From positions 1,922,001-1,986,000 of the forward strand of contig NZ_CP032683.1 in NCBI RefSeq assembly GCF_001304615.2: 64,000 nt of DNA. Direction: 5' to 3'. Origin of the DNA: Methanosarcina flavescens. GTDB taxonomy: Archaea; Halobacteriota; Methanosarcinia; Methanosarcinales; Methanosarcinaceae. Position numbers and translations under genes: made by a program. Each line of letters opens with the position of its first letter. The first letter of the stretch is position 1. Below are positions 13,373 through 21,771 of this stretch, piece after piece. Under the pieces are notes generated by a model. That model was not told the DNA's origin. It searched no databases and worked only from the letters and a program-made list of their open reading frames with translations.

Positions 13373-13479
13373 AGATAATGAAATCAAATTATTAAATGCA
13401 GAGATTCTATCTTCAGGTCTTCCATGGTTTTTAAAGACAGATTTGAAGAAGTGCAGAACCCAGGCCACGCGTGATAGTA

Positions 13480-15666
13480 ATGGAGCGGAACTTCCCCATT
13501 CAGTGTTCAGATTTTGATAGGCTGGTTATGGATAACGTTGAAGGAGCTCGGGCAGAAGTTTCCGGTATGCCTGACCTCAGTGACCCGTGCTTATATACGG
13601 ACCGGGAATACAGCTGGCTCCAATTCAATAACAGGGTACTTGAAGAAGCTTTTGACGAGCGCAATCCCCTGCTTGAAAGAGTCAAGTTTCTTTCGATTTT
13701 TGGAAGTAATCTTGATGAGTTTTTCATGGTCAGGGTTTCAGGCGTCCTGAAAAGAATAGCTGAAGCTCTAAAAGATGACAGGACAGACGAGCTGGCGCAG
13801 GAACAGCTTCGTATTATCAGGCTAGAGCTTCTCAGGCAGCTTCCTCTCACTGATAAATGCTGGAATGAGATCCTTGAACCTGCTCTCAGGGAAAAAGGAA
13901 TTAAAGTTCTTAATTACTTTGAGCTTTCAGGGAAGGAAAGAGAAAAGCTTAGAGACTATTTCGAGAGAAATATTTTCCCTCTACTCACTCCTCTAGGTTT
14001 TGATTCAGGACGTCCTTTCCCTCATATTTCCAACCTCAGCCTTAACCTTGCAGTACTGATTGATGACCCTGATTATGGGGAACGCTTTGCAAGGGTCAAG
14101 ATCCCTCCAATGTTCACGAGACTTGTAGTCGTTCCTGAGGATGACCAGGAGAGAATAACCTCCAGTCTGGAGGAACTGAAAACAGGACGTTTTGTCTGGC
14201 TTGAACAGCTTATAGCTGCAAATCTTGACCTCCTGTTTCCCGGACAGCATATTCTCGGAGCCTACCCATTCAGGATCACACGCGATGCGGACCTCGGTTT
14301 TGATGAAGATGGGGACAAAGATCTTATGACAGCTGTAAAACAAAGAGTCGGCAGGAACTACTTTGGGTCGGCTGTCAGACTTGAGACCGATTATACGATG
14401 CCTCCGAGAGTTTCGGATATTCTTCTTAAGAATCTGGACCTTACTGCTTCCCTTATGTTCAGGTCTGCAGCTCCTCTGGGGCTTTCAAGTCTCATTAAAC
14501 TTGCACAGATTAACCGCCCTGAGCTTAAATACGAGCCCTTCGAGCCGAAAAAACACTCTCAACTGACGAAAAAGAAGGAAATTTTCTCAGTTCTCAAAAA
14601 GCGAGACATTCTGCTTCACCATCCTTATGATAGTTTCGAATCGGTAATTGACTTTGTGGAGGAGGCTGCCGACGATCCTGATGTTCTGGCGATCAAAATG
14701 ACCCTTTACAGGGTGGATGACAATTCCAGAATTGTCCAGGCTCTTATGAAAGCAGCCGACCGGAGGAAGCAGGTAGCGGTTCTGGTTGAGCTTAAAGCCC
14801 GCTTTGATGAGGAAAACAATATAGGTTGGGCAAAAGAACTCGAACGCAAAGGGGTTCATGTAGCTTACGGTTTTCCGGGACGCAAGACTCATGCCAAGAT
14901 GTGCCTTGTGGTGAGAGCCGAAGAGGAAGGCATCAGGTATTACGTGCATATGAGCACAGGAAACTATAACGCTGTCACAGGAAAGCTCTATACGGATATT
15001 GGTTACTTGACAAGTGATTCATTCATAGGCAAGGATATCTCTGACCTTTTCAATGCCCTTACAGGATATTCGAGAAAAGACCATTATATCAAACTCCTTG
15101 TAGCCCCCCAGACTCTAAGGCATCAGATCCTGGAACGTATCAGGCGTGAAATTGACCTGCATGAGAAATGTGGAAACGGACACCTGATCTTCAAGATGAA
15201 TTCCCTTGTGGACTACCAGTGCATCCGGGAGCTCTACAGGGCTTCCAGAGCCGGAGTAAAGGTAGACCTTATTATCCGGGGAATCTGCTGCCTCAGACCA
15301 GGTATTTACGGGCTCAGTGAAAATATCAGGGTTACCTCGATAGTTGGCCGCTTCCTTGAACACTCCAGGATTTACTATTTCAGAAACGGCGGAAAAGAAG
15401 AGGTCTTTATGGGAAGTGCCGACCTTATGCCGCGCAACCTGGACAACAGGGTAGAAGTGCTCTTTCCGGCATCTCCAGAATACATCCCCATCCTGAGAGA
15501 TGTGATTCTTGGCATCCACCTCAAAGATAATGTAAAAGCCCGCCTTCTGCTTCCGAACGGCAGGACTGAGAGAATTTACCCGCAGCCCCAGGAAGAAGAA
15601 CTGGATTCTCAATTGTGGATGCTTGAGAACAGCAGAAGCTGGGATTTAGGCTCTCAGAAAGGCTGA
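13480..15666 (+). CDS. ppk: Polyphosphate kinase Ppk1
   Basis: About 728 residues. Reversibly polymerises the gamma-phosphate of ATP into polyphosphate through a phosphohistidine. The N-domain begins at YTDREYSWLQFNNRVLEEA; the middle and two phospholipase-D-like C-domains follow. The catalytic His lies in THAKMCLV (about residue 470), with HMSTGNYN just after it. Length is typical for PPK1. GTG at 13471 and ATG at 13528 are alternative starts, none with a clear ribosome site. Ppx and a CYTH-CHAD protein follow within 6 kb, so this forms a polyphosphate district, although a 1.7-kb gap argues against one operon. Confidence 0.95.
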   Translation: MERNFPIQCSDFDRLVMDNVEGARAEVSGMPDLSDPCLYTDREYSWLQFNNRVLEEAFDERNPLLERVKFLSIFGSNLDEFFMVRVSGVLKRIAEALKDDRTDELAQEQLRIIRLELLRQLPLTDKCWNEILEPALREKGIKVLNYFELSGKEREKLRDYFERNIFPLLTPLGFDSGRPFPHISNLSLNLAVLIDDPDYGERFARVKIPPMFTRLVVVPEDDQERITSSLEELKTGRFVWLEQLIAANLDLLFPGQHILGAYPFRITRDADLGFDEDGDKDLMTAVKQRVGRNYFGSAVRLETDYTMPPRVSDILLKNLDLTASLMFRSAAPLGLSSLIKLAQINRPELKYEPFEPKKHSQLTKKKEIFSVLKKRDILLHHPYDSFESVIDFVEEAADDPDVLAIKMTLYRVDDNSRIVQALMKAADRRKQVAVLVELKARFDEENNIGWAKELERKGVHVAYGFPGRKTHAKMCLVVRAEEEGIRYYVHMSTGNYNAVTGKLYTDIGYLTSDSFIGKDISDLFNALTGYSRKDHYIKLLVAPQTLRHQILERIRREIDLHEKCGNGHLIFKMNSLVDYQCIRELYRASRAGVKVDLIIRGICCLRPGIYGLSENIRVTSIVGRFLEHSRIYYFRNGGKEEVFMGSADLMPRNLDNRVEVLFPASPEYIPILRDVILGIHLKDNVKARLLLPNGRTERIYPQPQEEELDSQLWMLENSRSWDLGSQKG

Positions 15667-15862
15667 AGAGGGAGATTCCTATTCCTTTCATTTCTTTTTA
15701 AAAATTTTTAATGAAAAAAGATTAATTTTTCTGTGGGATGAATCCTTAAAATATATTTGTTGTAGAAAAGTTATCAAAAAACTAAGCACTAATGTCTTTT
15801 TATTTTTTTTTAAACATTGAATGTGCTTATTTTCTTATTTATCAAAGACTCATCCCAATCGC

Positions 15863-15924
15863 AAATAAGAGCTTATTTACTTCAAATAAGAGCTTATTTA
15901 CTTCAAATAAGAGCTTATTTACTT
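15863..15924. repeat. 21-bp tandem repeat, three copies, each a small hairpin
   Basis: Copies start at 15863, 15884 and 15905 and are essentially identical. Each holds AAATAAG-AG-CTTATTT, an inverted repeat with a 2-bp centre. The array overlaps the stop codon and 3-prime flank of the small minus-strand ORF at 15919-16041. Confidence 0.85.
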
Positions 15925-16041
15925 GCAGGTGTCAAGAAGACCTCTCTTTTTACCTCCCCTGCTTTCAGAGGGGTGTATTGGTTCAACTTTAGCTTCTTCT
16001 TCTTTTGATTCTGCCTTCTTTTCTTCATTATGGTGGGTCAT
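15919..16041 (-). CDS. Small highly charged protein, 40 residues
   Basis: ATG at 16039-16041 opens 40 codons ending in TAA. The product is very hydrophilic (Glu/Lys-rich N-half, GGKKRG near residues 29-34, single Cys at 39) with no membrane segment. AGGAG lies 8 nt before the ATG, and the same 13-bp ribosome-site block (TCAACTCCTAAAT on the plus strand) is duplicated 18 bp further upstream (16046-16058 and 16064-16076). A TATA-like TTTAAAAATATA lies upstream. The translation signals, more than the length, argue that it is real. Function unknown. Confidence 0.45.
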   Translation of the reverse strand: MTHHNEEKKAESKEEEAKVEPIHPSESRGGKKRGLLDTCK

Positions 16042-16155
16042 AAACTCAACTCCTAAATTAATTTCAACTCCTAAATCAATTATATTTTTAAACAATTTTC
16101 TTGGATTTTTTGTTCAAATATCCTATTAACCTTCAAAGGATTTCTAATTTTTACG

Positions 16156-16380
16156 TCATATCCAGATTACTTCTGCCAACATTTTTTTTACTGGAACTAA
16201 AGAAGGATTTATGTCCTTAGCAGTTAGCAAATAGTATTCTGTCTGGTTCTCATTTTGCAATAATAAATCTTTGAGCCCAAAGATTCTATTCTTAGATAGA
16301 TTGATAGTTTTTTCATCCCCCCATTTTATTAATAAGAAACCAACTGGACTAAATTTGAAATATACACAACTATCAAAAGA
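16156..16380 (-). pseudogene. Open fragment of a decayed gene, no start codon
   Basis: 75 codons read without a stop on the minus strand and end in TGA, but a TAA closes the frame upstream and there is no start with a ribosome site. The composition (FSPVGFLLIKWGDEKTI, then an LLTAKDINPSLVPV stretch) looks like real protein rather than random AT-rich DNA. No family recognised. Probably the 3-prime remnant of a lost gene. Confidence 0.3.
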
Positions 16381-16492
16381 TTAGAGAAAGCCTGGAAGAT
16401 TTGCTGTTTTTATTACTTATTTTCGATAAACTAACCCAAAAAAATAATCCTCAATATATTTTTTTAGATTAGAACCTCTTCCAGGCAACTCT

Positions 16493-16636
16493 TTATTCAC
16501 ATATCCAACCTGTCACTTTCCCATTTGTGTTGATCCATCCTTTTTTCCTTAGCGGTCTGTGCATCCGCTTTGGTTCTTTCGTTTGGGTCTCCTCTCTTAT
16601 TTTCGTGGGGTTGCAATCTATAATAATTCCCAAACT
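16493..16636 (-). pseudogene. Short basic ORF remnant
   Basis: A 48-codon open stretch on the minus strand ends in TAA at 16493-16495 and carries a basic segment (MHRPLRKKGWINTNGKV). The only ATG is at 16562-16564, which would give 23 residues. No family recognised; likely a remnant. The rest of 15667-17362 holds the ppx promoter (TATA at 17188-17195) and AT-rich DNA. Confidence 0.2.
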
Positions 16637-17187
16637 TATTTAAAATAAATTATATGAAAAATTGGCTGTGAACAAATAATATTCAGATTTAAAATGTTAT
16701 TTTATCAAACAATATTTTAAATATTAGCTTAATTCAGATTCTCTTAAATATTTGATTTCACTTCAGATCTTAATTCCGATCTTAACGCCTACACATCTGG
16801 CTTTCTCTGAAAAACATCTCGAAAAGTAATCTCAGCAGAACTTCCGTGATTAAAAATAATGAGTCTCTAAGATGGTTACATCTTTTCTTTCAAGAAATTT
16901 CTGTAAAAACTTCCTGCGCAATAGTGTGCACAATAGTAATGTAAGCTGATAGCCGGACAAGGTTACCATTCTAAATTTCGAACTCGGGGATTTATTTCTC
17001 AAATTTTGCTATTCCATATGATACATGAGTACAGGGTACGTGACCGATAACCGCGGCATGAAAAACAAAAATATTTCAGATGCAAACAGGTACACTTTTT
17101 TCCATCACAAGAGCTTAGTTTCTTTATAAAGGACTACAGAAAAAAGTCTGAAAATTAGCTTTCTTAATGCCCTTTCTTTATTAAGTG

Positions 17188-17195
17188 TATAAATA
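17188..17195 (+). promoter_or_regulatory. TATA-like box upstream of ppx
   Basis: TATAAATA, about 170 bp before the ppx start, is the best promoter candidate in the gap and would give a leader of about 145 nt. Confidence 0.3.
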
Positions 17196-17362
17196 AGCAA
17201 TCTATCCAATACATAGAATTATCTGTGCAGAAATAACAACAATTACAAACTTCCAATACACTACCAAATAATCTAAAATAGAATAAAAATATGAACTAGT
17301 AATGTGAAGCTTATTTTGAGTTTCTCGATTCCTTCGAGAAAAACAAAAAACAGGGCTTTCAG

Positions 17363-19021
17363 GTGGTAATAACGGAACCCGAGAAAATTTCCGAAGGCAG
17401 AGTTGTTGCGTTTATCGATATAGGTACTAATTCAATACGGCTTCTTCTGGTACGTATCAATCCCAATGGGTCTTACTTTCCCCTAACCAAGCAGAAGGAA
17501 ACAGTCAGGCTTGGGGATCAAGGATTCATAGACCGGATTCTGCAGCCTAAAGCGATAGAACGCGCAGTTGTTGTCTGTAAAAAGTTCATGGAACTTGCCA
17601 GGGCTTACAGGGCAGAGGAAATTATAGCTGTGGCAACCTCAGCAACGCGGGATGCAAGCAATAAAGTTCAGCTTCTTGAAATGCTGAAAAGGGAGGCAAA
17701 CCTGGAAGTCTGTCCAATTTCCGGAACAGAAGAAGCTCGCCTCATTTACCTCGGGGTTTCAAGCGGGCTCAGACTTGGGAGCTCAAAAGCTCTGTTCATA
17801 GATATCGGAGGTGGGAGCACTGAATTATCAATAGGGGATCAGACCCGATGTTATTCTCTTTACTCCCTTAACCTTGGATCCATCAGGTTGACAAATATGT
17901 TTTTACCGGATGAAACGGGGCCTGTTTCCGAGGAACAATATGAGCGGATTAAAGAATACGTCCGTCATAAGCTTGTAGATGTAACAAAAGATCTTTCCAG
18001 GCACAGCGTAAACTGTTCTATTGGAAGCTCGGGAACAATTGAAAACCTTGCTAGGATCGCTTTTGTCTACCTGCACAAAACATCCCATGAAAACTTTGAG
18101 AAACTCGAATATGAAGACCTTAGGAAAATAGTCAGGGCAATGTGTGCTATACCTCTTGAAGAGCGGCGCAAATTCCCAGGAATTAATGCACAAAGAGCTG
18201 ATATTATAATTGCGGGGGCTGCAATTATTGAAACTTTCATGGAAGAGTTTGGGCTTTCAGAAATTAGAGTAAGCAAACGCGGGCTTCGGGAAGGGCTGCT
18301 TGTAGATTATATATCAAAGAGCGAATTCTCCTATATGATTACGCAGATGTCGGTAAGAAAACGCAGCATCATGCAGCTTGGACTTACCTGCAACTTCGAT
18401 GATGAACATGCCCATACAGTAACCAGGCTTGCCCTTGAACTTTTTGACAGCATTCAAGCGCTTGGGATTTACGAGTTCAGGGCAGGGGAAAGAGAACTTC
18501 TTGAGTATGGCTCAACCCTGCATGACATAGGAACTTTCCTATCATATGATACCCATCAAGCACATGCTTATCACCTCATACGGGCGAGCAATCTTCCGGG
18601 TTTCCAGCCTGAAGAAATCGAAATAATAGCGAACCTTGCCTACTTCCACAGGAAAAGCACTCCTAAGAAGAAACACCCCAATCTCATCGGGCTTAACAAA
18701 GAAGTAATAAAAAGCATCAGGATTCTGAGTGCCCTGCTCCGCATTGCCGAAGGTCTGGATCGCTCGCATAATGGAATTATTTCCCACGTTCGGTTTTATC
18801 TTGCTTCTACAGACAGCCTGGTGCTTGAGATGCACGCTCAAAGGGAGTGTCAGTTAGAGATCTGGGAGGTAGAGAAACAGAAAAAGTACTTCAAAAAAAT
18901 ATTCGGGTATAATCTTCAATCTAAAGTTATTATAAAACGGGATGAAAGCGTTCCCTTAGTCCTTGAAGGAAGTGCTGAACTTGAGGAAACCTCGGGAGTT
19001 GAGGTATCTTCAAAAAGTTAA
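17363..19021 (+). CDS. ppx: Exopolyphosphatase, Ppx/GppA family with C-terminal HD domain
   Basis: 552 residues. Removes terminal phosphate from polyphosphate (or from pppGpp in GppA relatives). The ASKHA phosphate-binding loops are AFIDIGTNS at 16-24 and FIDIGGGSTELS near 147. The C-terminal half is an HD-type domain with LHDIG near residue 387 and a conserved HRK later. The GTG start is supported by AGGG 7 nt upstream. It converges on the CYTH-CHAD gene, whose middle domain resembles this HD domain. Absence of a (p)ppGpp system in archaea favours the polyphosphate role. Confidence 0.92.
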   Translation: MVITEPEKISEGRVVAFIDIGTNSIRLLLVRINPNGSYFPLTKQKETVRLGDQGFIDRILQPKAIERAVVVCKKFMELARAYRAEEIIAVATSATRDASNKVQLLEMLKREANLEVCPISGTEEARLIYLGVSSGLRLGSSKALFIDIGGGSTELSIGDQTRCYSLYSLNLGSIRLTNMFLPDETGPVSEEQYERIKEYVRHKLVDVTKDLSRHSVNCSIGSSGTIENLARIAFVYLHKTSHENFEKLEYEDLRKIVRAMCAIPLEERRKFPGINAQRADIIIAGAAIIETFMEEFGLSEIRVSKRGLREGLLVDYISKSEFSYMITQMSVRKRSIMQLGLTCNFDDEHAHTVTRLALELFDSIQALGIYEFRAGERELLEYGSTLHDIGTFLSYDTHQAHAYHLIRASNLPGFQPEEIEIIANLAYFHRKSTPKKKHPNLIGLNKEVIKSIRILSALLRIAEGLDRSHNGIISHVRFYLASTDSLVLEMHAQRECQLEIWEVEKQKKYFKKIFGYNLQSKVIIKRDESVPLVLEGSAELEETSGVEVSSKS

Positions 19022-19077
19022 TCAACAGGTTTTCAACTAAAATAAATGAGTTATCGAATTAATATACATCTATCGCG

Positions 19078-21771
19078 TTAATAGAGATTTTTTATTGCAC
19101 TTTCAATCCGTTCCCTGAAGTTTCCATTTCTTACCCTTTTCCAGGCTTCGGGAAAGGTGTTAAGTAATGTTTGGAGTTCTTCCTCCCTGTACGCTAGATA
19201 GGCTTCTATTCCTTCTGCGCCTGCAGGGAACTTCTTTTTTCCTGAATTTTTCTCATTTTCGGCAGAGCCCCATTCCCCGGTTCTCAGGTAAGAACTCAGC
19301 AGATCAACTGCAATCACCGCATCGTGAAGATTTCCAAGGTGATCCTGAAAGGTTTTAAGCTCCCTAATCAGGTTTTTTATATCCTCCCCAAGTACACTCT
19401 CAAAAAATTCGAGGGTATAACGCATTTCCTTAGCTGCAATCCTGAGCCTGTGCAGGCGTTCAACAGGAAGATAAGGCCCTTCTACCCATTCGGAGTAAGC
19501 ACTGATATCTGCTAAACGTGCATAAAGGATAGACGGAAGAACATCTTTTACCCTGTGTGGCAAAGCGTCATGTTTTTCGTTAGTTACAGGACGGATCAAG
19601 CTTTCTGGAGAGGCAAGTGCATCCGAAAACTCCTTCTTGAAAGTCCGGTATTTTTCGCTTTCAAGATAATCAAGCATATTTTTCCTGGCTTTTTTTCGCT
19701 CGTCGGCAAGCACTGCAAAAAGCGGGTCCAGATCATGCTCATGTCTAGGAGGAAGGGTTTTCAGGTATTCTTCGGTTTTTTCGCGGAAAACGTCGAGATC
19801 CCTGACTTTTCCAAGTGAACTAAGGGTCCTTCTGAGTCCTTTGAGGTGAGGTTCAAGCTGTCTGGAATCAAGATAAGTCTCAAAAACCTTTGCTGCCGCT
19901 CTCATCCTGCGGACTGCGACCCTCATGTTGTGTAGTTTTTCAATATCTTTTCCTTTTACAGTTCCTCCCTCATAGGAGAGCATGCTGGAAAATTGATAAG
20001 AAAGTATCCTGCAGGCAAGCCCTGCCATAGAGTCAGCAGGTTTGACAGTTATCTCTGCAGGTGGTCTGCACTTTCTCTTTTCTTGTTTCTTTTCCTTTTC
20101 ATCTTGTTTTCCTTCTGTTTTTCTCTCTTCTAGCTTTTTCTCTTCTCTGGATTGCTTCTTTTCTGTCTTTTTCTTTTCTCTGGATTGACTTTTCTCTGTT
20201 TTTTTCTCCTTTCCAGCTGGTTTCTTTGTTCCTATTTCCTTTGTTTCGGATTTACTTCCGTCCAGGGGTTCTTCTTCCTCAGTAATCTGAGAAAATATAA
20301 TTTTGCTTCCATAGAGAAATTTCCAGAATTTACTTTTCGCCTCAAACTTTTTTGCAGCTTTTTCAGTTATAGTTCCTGTTATTTCTATTTCCAGAGCGTC
20401 TTTAAGCTGCCTTGTCTTTATAGGTCGGGCATCGGAAGCTTCGAGAAGGGTTGCAATTGACATAATGGCTGCAAGCACCAGGGCTTTACTTTGGAAATCG
20501 GGGGGCAGCTTCGTATGGAAACCTTTAAAGACTGAGTTTAGATCTTTTTCGTTTAAACATGAATCCTGAATCTCAGCGATCAGGGCGAGCATTAAATTCT
20601 CGTGGAGCCTGAGTCCTTTTATGGAGTGAGTCATGAAGATTTCCCTGTTTATACGGGCGCTCTCTTCGGGAAAGCTTGAGTTACCCGCATCCTTCAGGAG
20701 AGCTGCAAGCCCGAGGAGCTTTCTCTCATCCTGTCCAAGTCCGTGGTATAAAAGCAGCTCATCAAAAAGTGTAAGAGCATATTCCCTGGTTTTTTCTGCC
20801 CTGATTTTATTTATCCCATAATACTCAAGCAGGCTTTCAGTGTCCCATTGCTTAAACTCTATTGCTTTCTTTTCATCTCTCAAAACAAAGTTTTCTCCGG
20901 ATTGGAGATGGAACTCACGGTCTTTTTCTTTATATGTGGCAAAAGGAAAAATAGAAAGCCTCTTTTCTTTAAATTTTGAGTGCAGGGCTTTGATTTCACC
21001 TTGAGAGACATTTAGAAGCCTGCTGAGCTCTTCGCAGTTCTGTCCCCTGTCGAGCCCTGTTAAAATTTGAGCCTGCTTTCCATATACGTTTTTCTGGCCT
21101 GCAAGCTGTGAGCAAAAAGCCTTTTCTCTCAAACTAAGCAAGGTTTTCTCAGGAAGATTTTCCATGAAAAGAAAGGCTCTCTCGAACTTGGAAAAAGGGC
21201 TTTCTGTCAGGTTATAGTGCTTGAGCAGGAAATTCCGTATACTCTCAAGATCTTCAGAGTTTCCTTCGCTTTTAAGTTCAACTTCAAATTCATTATAGTG
21301 TTTTTCTCTGCCTCCACTTCTCAGGTTTACCCTGTCCAGGTAAGCTTCTGCTACAAACCTATTCCCTATTTTTATCTGGCGTATCATCCTTTTCTGTTTG
21401 AGGGACAGAAGTGGAAAAAATTCAAGTCCTGCCGTAAGTTCCAGAACCATATTTCTGATACGGAAATCAGGACATTCGATCACGGATTTCCCCTCAGGTA
21501 GGAAACTTACATACTCCTCTCGCCTGTGAGTCCCACTTTCAAAACCTCCCAGGCTTTTAATGGTTACCCAGCTTCCCTCTTCCCCAAACGCTTTTCTTAC
21601 TCGCAGATAATAACCTGAAGCCATAATAGCCCGATTCTCAGTATCAAAGAAAACATCCTCGTTTAACTGGACTTTCGGCTCAGAAAGGGTGTATGAAGCA
21701 AGCTCAGAGAGGTTTTCTAGAGCCTGAAAATCCGCTTCTTCAATTACCAGAAACTTCGACTCTATCTCCAT
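19078..21771 (-). CDS. CYTH - degenerate HD - CHAD fusion protein, polyphosphate-related
   Basis: 897 residues. An N-terminal CYTH triphosphate-tunnel domain (about 1-195) carries the ExExK signature at E2/E4/K6. A helix-turn-helix-like segment (CEELSRLLNVSQGEIKAL, near 245) follows, then a region (about 320-490) similar in layout to the neighbouring Ppx HD domain but with LLKDAG where Ppx has LHDIG, so the metal His is lost. A Lys/Glu linker (about 505-580) joins it to a C-terminal CHAD domain (about 590-890) with basic helices such as MRVAVRRMRAAAKVF. CHAD domains bind polyphosphate; CYTH domains hydrolyse or bind triphosphates. A sensor, carrier or processing enzyme of polyphosphate is inferred. 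Confidence 0.85.
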   Translation of the reverse strand: MEIESKFLVIEEADFQALENLSELASYTLSEPKVQLNEDVFFDTENRAIMASGYYLRVRKAFGEEGSWVTIKSLGGFESGTHRREEYVSFLPEGKSVIECPDFRIRNMVLELTAGLEFFPLLSLKQKRMIRQIKIGNRFVAEAYLDRVNLRSGGREKHYNEFEVELKSEGNSEDLESIRNFLLKHYNLTESPFSKFERAFLFMENLPEKTLLSLREKAFCSQLAGQKNVYGKQAQILTGLDRGQNCEELSRLLNVSQGEIKALHSKFKEKRLSIFPFATYKEKDREFHLQSGENFVLRDEKKAIEFKQWDTESLLEYYGINKIRAEKTREYALTLFDELLLYHGLGQDERKLLGLAALLKDAGNSSFPEESARINREIFMTHSIKGLRLHENLMLALIAEIQDSCLNEKDLNSVFKGFHTKLPPDFQSKALVLAAIMSIATLLEASDARPIKTRQLKDALEIEITGTITEKAAKKFEAKSKFWKFLYGSKIIFSQITEEEEPLDGSKSETKEIGTKKPAGKEKKTEKSQSREKKKTEKKQSREEKKLEERKTEGKQDEKEKKQEKRKCRPPAEITVKPADSMAGLACRILSYQFSSMLSYEGGTVKGKDIEKLHNMRVAVRRMRAAAKVFETYLDSRQLEPHLKGLRRTLSSLGKVRDLDVFREKTEEYLKTLPPRHEHDLDPLFAVLADERKKARKNMLDYLESEKYRTFKKEFSDALASPESLIRPVTNEKHDALPHRVKDVLPSILYARLADISAYSEWVEGPYLPVERLHRLRIAAKEMRYTLEFFESVLGEDIKNLIRELKTFQDHLGNLHDAVIAVDLLSSYLRTGEWGSAENEKNSGKKKFPAGAEGIEAYLAYREEELQTLLNTFPEAWKRVRNGNFRERIESAIKNLY

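Follow-up and report, generated by a model that had tools for sequence, protein, structure and literature searches.

Within the window, the whole 64,000-nucleotide stretch of Methanosarcina flavescens DNA analysed here, from a host genome of 3.28 Mb on a single contig, gene calls place ppk1, ppx and the gene of a CYTH-X-CHAD protein side by side, forming a polyphosphate (polyP) gene district (Table 1). The earlier note on this DNA had described the same grouping, and its coordinates held apart from the start of Ppk1 (GTG at 13471 instead of ATG at 13480). Ppk1 matched the Pfam PP_kinase domains at 1e-33 to 5e-74 and NCBIfam polyphosphate kinase families at up to 1e-285. The 1.7 kb gap between ppk1 and ppx was searched for a hidden gene and contained just short overlapping open reading frames; no Rfam match indicated a functional RNA in the district, this gap included. 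Conservation of the gap (81%) across nearly its full length was seen with L052 only, and the ~100 bp upstream of ppx are conserved more widely than the remainder. Domain III of Ppx is of the HD type with six of six ligands present (H349, H387, D388, H398, H429 and D466); an HD motif in the C-terminal domain of M. acetivorans Ppx has been noted earlier (PMC6821655). E. coli Ppx lacks the full HD ligand set while the Methanosarcina domain III has all six, and a second metal site in the latter is possible.

Table 1. Features of the polyP gene district (coordinates in the window).
Feature	Coordinates	Strand	Basis or remark
ppk1, polyphosphate kinase 1, 731 aa	13471..15666	+	GTG start 13471; ATG alternative start 13480
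ppk1-ppx intergenic stretch, AT-rich, 30.5% GC	15667..17362	.	without convincing gene
ppx, long exopolyphosphatase, 552 aa	17363..19021	+	Pfam Ppx-GppA 4.7e-64; closest solved Ppx 1.3e-60
Ppx domain III, residues 331-505	18353..18877	+	Ppx-GppA_III 2.8e-27; ligand table
CYTH - HTH-like - pseudo-HD - K/E linker - CHAD protein, 897 aa	19078..21771	-	convergent to ppx
CHAD domain, polyP-binding fold, residues 586-897	19081..20016	-	Pfam 5e-55; PDB CtCHAD 9e-24; Foldseek
K/E-rich linker, disordered, fast-changing, residues 499-580	20032..20277	-	pLDDT, dN/dS
pseudo-HD, dead Ppx/GppA domain III homologue, residues 305-496	20284..20859	-	profile, fold, ligand table
HTH-like segment, three-helix, residues 212-278	20938..21138	-	model helices; orthologue Pfam matches
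CYTH / triphosphate tunnel domain, residues 1-205	21157..21771	-	Pfam 8e-25; conserved residues

The 897-aa protein, hereafter the tri-domain protein, has its named orthologues in Methanosarcina. Its CYTH domain matched Pfam PF01928 over residues 2-199 (88 bits against a cut-off of 23.2), and E2, E4, K6, R57, R59, K72, R84, E86, R128, E161, E163, E165 and K195 show little or no variation, with both the ExExK motif and the acidic patch present (E2, E4, K6, E163 and E165 conserved). The CYTH profile matched E. coli ygiF at 6e-11. In ygiF the metals are coordinated by Glu4, Glu6, Glu160 and Glu162 (PMC4641920), and the last two belong to an E-x-E-x-E run with which E161/E163/E165 align. The catalytic residues of the CYTH domain are intact, which makes the 'sensor or scaffold' of the earlier note too weak a reading. 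The HTH-like segment that follows was absent from the earlier description; the full-length model places its helices at 214-223, 229-241, 246-253 and 257-274. In the orthologue L061 this segment matched HTH_23 (8.9e-5) and HTH_29 (3.6e-4), both under the Pfam cut-offs, as is the window protein's own segment. It also matched the inter-domain segment of CYTH-CHAD proteins from Anaerolineae (1.4e-9) and Actinomycetota (1e-6); the recognition helix is basic (RRVRYW-type) in the bacterial homologues and this character is lost in the archaeal proteins.

At the C-terminal end, the CHAD domain matched Pfam PF05235 over residues 589-825 (187 bits, cut-off 25.6). Its best Foldseek match was 6qva, a CHAD domain with polyphosphate (TM 0.85), and the basic residues H614, R617, H774, R775, R777, K781 and R784 are invariant among 19 sequences. 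CHAD domains bind long-chain polyP and possibly make fused enzymes processive (PMC6537752). The linker preceding CHAD has pLDDT values below 50 at residues 499-570 of the full-length model, a dN/dS of 0.26-0.47 and identities of 47-79%. Weak Pfam and NCBIfam matches to phage-tail, YidC and fibronectin-binding families fell on this linker, not on the middle domain, and were set aside. No Pfam match to the ASKHA phosphatase domains I/II of Ppx-GppA (PF02541) was found in the tri-domain protein.

The middle region, residues ~305-496, is genuinely homologous to Ppx/GppA domain III, since profile matches, intermediate proteins and predicted fold agree. Pfam run on the single window sequence gave no match there at E<=1, PF21447 included, and neither did NCBIfam. 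Pairwise BLASTP between the tri-domain protein and the neighbouring Ppx gave just one faint local match (LFDEL..KDAGN, E 0.78), which does not suffice to decide on homology. A profile built from 19 tri-domain middle regions, with live HD sequences left out, retrieved Ppx chains from the PDB at E 1.3e-7 and 5.5e-7; 10 of its 11 matches at E<=1 were Ppx/GppA. The same kind of profile, run on 2,403 open reading frames, retrieved HD-family proteins and Ppx down to 1e-5, the best match in the reversed-sequence control being 0.17. The middle region also found free-standing HD proteins of ~215 aa (SOLO) and CYTH-HD proteins of 415-417 aa, which themselves exceed the Pfam Ppx-GppA_III cut-off (1.7e-12 and 2.4e-13, respectively). 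Structure was judged on model confidence and fold matches. An AlphaFold2 model of residues 226-505 (mean pLDDT 78) had Ppx/GppA structures as all 28 of its 28 best PDB matches in Foldseek, with E values down to 1e-6, and superposed on the free-standing Yersinia Ppx domain (3rf0) with a TM of 0.73. The full-length AlphaFold2 model, made from tri-domain sequences alone (pLDDT 82.8, pTM 0.79), matched CHAD-polyP, ygiF/TTM3 and Ppx/GppA structures. The resemblance to the Ppx C-terminal HD domain proposed in the earlier note, and the fold comparison it called for, are thus borne out by the profile and by both models. Of its motif pairing the homology stood, but LLEASDARP had been set wrongly against LLRIAEGLD, for which the true register is IMSIATLLE; the last Ppx ligand, Asp466, aligns with Glu444 of the tri-domain protein.

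At the positions of Ppx H349/H387/D388/H398/H429/D466 the window protein carries R324, K360, D361, S371, Q402 and E444. The earlier note was right that metal-binding His is missing, but the loss extends beyond one residue: none of the four His is left and the last Asp is gone too, with D361 the sole remaining ligand. Among the 69 live relatives sampled the full ligand set H-HD-H-H-D is kept: HHDHHD was read in every Ppx (38), CYTH-HD (8) and calcineurin-HD (6) row and in 16 of the 17 SOLO rows, the 17th being truncated after five ligands, all of which are kept. None of 27 tri-domain rows has the full set, and at most three of six ligands remain. Judged from these residues, the domain is catalytically dead across the whole tri-domain lineage, and we refer to it as pseudo-HD. 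It is nevertheless under purifying selection, though usually looser than that on CYTH and CHAD (pairwise dN/dS of 0.19-0.44 for pseudo-HD versus 0.12-0.25 for CYTH and 0.13-0.20 for CHAD), and 21 of its about 190 columns are invariant in 19 sequences. Every intact member of the tri-domain family sampled contains it, in a shorter and more eroded form in Methanimicrococcus. A net positive charge that might point to polyP binding was looked for and not found: the mean net charge of pseudo-HD is -1.1, like that of its live relatives.

The three-domain order recurs across a whole lineage. The tri-domain gene and ppx also keep together in relatives: counted from gene coordinates in Methanosarcina-type genomes with both genes, the tri-domain gene lies beside ppx, within about 5 kb, in 27 of 32. 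The exceptions include G007, G175, G140 and G152; G140 and G152 have an intact tri-domain gene elsewhere, and G140 retains a decayed remnant beside ppx. Across 200 genomes of the sampled class, Ppx and CHAD occurred together in 70, Ppx only in 1 and CHAD only in 6 (Fisher 1e-45, not corrected for kinship). Four Methanosarcina loci (L062, L142, L145 and L148) hold a tri-domain gene away from ppk1-ppx, or a second copy. L062 and L142 cluster with Methanimicrococcus in the CHAD tree, which suggests that these two are an old second paralogue. Methanosarcina UBA402 has its tri-domain gene broken into three frames (L144:6835-8862; L182 is from the same record), which encode CYTH-HTH, pseudo-HD and a CHAD fragment, an effect of either decay or an assembly error. 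The M. flavescens genome itself has a free-standing live HD gene (L032:5625-6287, minus strand; C1:3218615-3219217) whose reading frame is open except for a single in-frame TAG. This genome encodes a pyrrolysyl-tRNA synthetase, so the TAG may be decoded as pyrrolysine, or the gene may be broken.

We propose, giving the idea about an even chance, that the tri-domain protein is a CHAD-tethered polyphosphatase in which the dead Ppx-III domain holds or feeds the chain, as the polyP-binding domain (PPBD) of E. coli Ppx would. The protein combines an intact CYTH tunnel, an HTH-like connector, a dead Ppx domain III and CHAD; CHAD would be the polyP anchor and CYTH the phosphatase tunnel. By analogy with E. 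coli Ppx, pseudo-HD would act as a non-catalytic chain-binding module between anchor and tunnel and would steer chain ends into the latter. A short-chain (tri)polyphosphatase might thereby gain access to long chains or to granules, working alongside Ppk1 and Ppx. In favour of the proposal stand the profile and fold homologies, the ligand loss confined to the tri-domain rows, the continuing constraint on pseudo-HD, the intact CYTH residues, the CHAD match to a polyP-bound structure, the polyP binding of the ligand-poor E. coli domain III and the co-occurrence of Ppx with CHAD. Several observations weigh against parts of this proposal. Pseudo-HD is not basic and has lost the His kept by E. coli Ppx, and its surface may be unable to bind polyP. 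The erosion in Methanimicrococcus also fits a dispensable spacer, and CYTH enzymes of this class may be limited to tripolyphosphate.

A regulatory scaffold, in which the dead domain III copy pairs, as a pseudoenzyme subunit, with the live domain III of the neighbouring Ppx or with the free-standing HD protein and tunes the partner or holds it on the granule, CYTH being secondary, is an unlikely alternative. It would agree with the adjacency of long Ppx and the tri-domain gene in the 27 of 32 genomes and with the presence of live HD copies in every sampled Methanosarcina-type genome having the tri-domain protein; published structures show Ppx as a dimer, which also speaks for such pairing. Yet some Methanimicrococcus genomes encode the tri-domain protein with a short Ppx (294-299 aa, no room for domain III) or with none detected, and no free-standing HD was found in them; nor was pseudo-HD recently copied from its presumed partner. 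We also consider it rather improbable that pseudo-HD is just a structural spacer, a folded remnant between CYTH/HTH and CHAD without its own ligand or partner. Looser selection than on the flanking domains in most comparisons, the absence of net basic charge, bacterial homologues of the cassette that manage without the domain and its partial loss in Methanimicrococcus all favour a spacer, but the invariant columns mark the domain as clearly constrained and no intact family member sampled lacks it. It is doubtful, too, that the metal site was remodelled, with Lys/Arg at former His positions creating a metal-free phosphate or nucleotide pocket, an arrangement that would be compatible with chain binding as its possible chemistry. 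K/R replaces the former first His in 20 of 27 tri-domain sequences and the former third in 17 of 27, as compared with a K+R background of ~14.5% in the domain; kinship among these sequences makes the counts non-independent, and Q and E occupy other former ligand positions.

Pseudo-HD derives from the SOLO/CYTH-HD branch and not from the neighbouring Ppx. In a 47-row tree it formed one group (support 99/95), and together with the SOLO proteins of the same genomes and the CYTH-HD proteins of sister genera it was split from all Ppx and calcineurin-HD (branch support 100/99.9). Forcing pseudo-HD into a clade with the neighbour's Ppx changed the fit by -40 log-likelihood units (AU test, p 0.0002), and forcing it with all Ppx cost 21 units (p 0.012). 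A recent origin of pseudo-HD by duplication of the neighbour's Ppx C-terminus, the borrowing envisaged in the earlier note and one that adjacency and the common fold might favour, is accordingly very improbable and, by tree and AU test, refuted under the tree model used. Grouping with CYTH-HD alone (p 0.15) or with SOLO alone (p 0.17) was not rejected, and both are possible donors. The cassette of Chloroflexi and Actinobacteria lacks pseudo-HD, which indicates that the Methanosarcina/Methanimicrococcus lineage gained it, most simply by insertion between HTH and CHAD. In sister genera the parts are separate: one gene encodes CYTH-HD and another, a few kb away, CHAD, accompanied by ppk1 and by a Ppx without domain III. 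The Ppx of these genera (L044-L051, L070 and L071) is short, 295-297 aa, and their Ppk1 belongs to a distant clade; the Methanosarcina ppk1/ppx thus have a different history.

Other families of the order (L131-L134, L139) and Acetomicrobium (L195) encode a live HD domain of the Ppx-III type in fusion with a calcineurin-like phosphatase. The calcineurin part was identified by Pfam in L131 and L139 and by HD match plus length in L195 and the rest. These genes lie beside CHAD and, in most cases, ppk1 or long ppx.

Each module of the tri-domain protein is already known. No description of the order CYTH-HTH-pseudo-HD-CHAD turned up in the literature searched, where CYTH and CHAD together with HD led to one unrelated survey, a search outside which lay the founding CYTH/CHAD paper; both domains were reportedly defined by Iyer and Aravind in 2002. 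The Methanosarcina polyP papers searched made no mention of a CHAD protein. Tentatively, and with somewhat less than even confidence, we view the protein as an undescribed four-module polyphosphatase with a dead Ppx-III as processivity or pseudoenzyme module, and Ppx-III as a mobile polyP-handling module that was joined separately to ASKHA (in Ppx), CYTH, calcineurin and CHAD, mostly within one gene district. Archaeal polyP metabolism past Ppk and Ppx is poorly known. CHAD and Ppx domain III are the best-known polyP-binding folds, and the tri-domain protein unites both with a phosphatase in one chain; the idea that extra binding modules confer processivity, proposed for CHAD and for Ppx, becomes testable with it. 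It also exemplifies gain of a pseudoenzyme domain by fusion inside a gene district rather than by copying of a neighbour.

Among known systems, the E. coli Ppx domain III or PPBD (residues 306-534) has its fold in common with pseudo-HD, and the sequences are recognisably related. This 'enzymatically inactive C-terminal domain' is used as a specific polyP probe (PMC9079103; PMC2096623). Its own HD ligand set is incomplete (EQA, LHEVG and NN), and it binds polyP; ligand loss in pseudo-HD is deeper and includes the His kept in E. coli Ppx. Domain III stands behind the ASKHA phosphatase in Ppx, and between CYTH and CHAD here. CtCHAD and the phosins share the CHAD fold and conserved basic residues, which here belong to a multi-domain protein with CYTH and pseudo-HD. 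The bacterial CYTH-CHAD protein ygiF (PDB 5a60) likewise has an N-terminal CYTH, a C-terminal CHAD and conserved CYTH active-site residues, but it has no Ppx-III domain, a ~20-residue linker taking the place of HTH, pseudo-HD and linker. CYTH is joined to the nearest relatives of pseudo-HD in the CYTH-HD proteins of other Methanosarcinaceae genera (L045-L051, 415-417 aa), whose genes lie near CHAD, ppk1 and short ppx; unlike the tri-domain protein, these have intact HD ligands, no HTH and an unfused CHAD. The cassette of Chloroflexi and Actinobacteria (L176-L183, L192 and L193) has the three genes in common with the district, in the order ppk1 > CYTH-(HTH)-CHAD > < ppx, with an HTH in several. 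Its CYTH-CHAD protein measures 541-652 aa, without pseudo-HD, and ppk1 lies upstream on the same strand, unlike here; as in Methanosarcina, the CYTH-CHAD gene is convergent to a long ppx.
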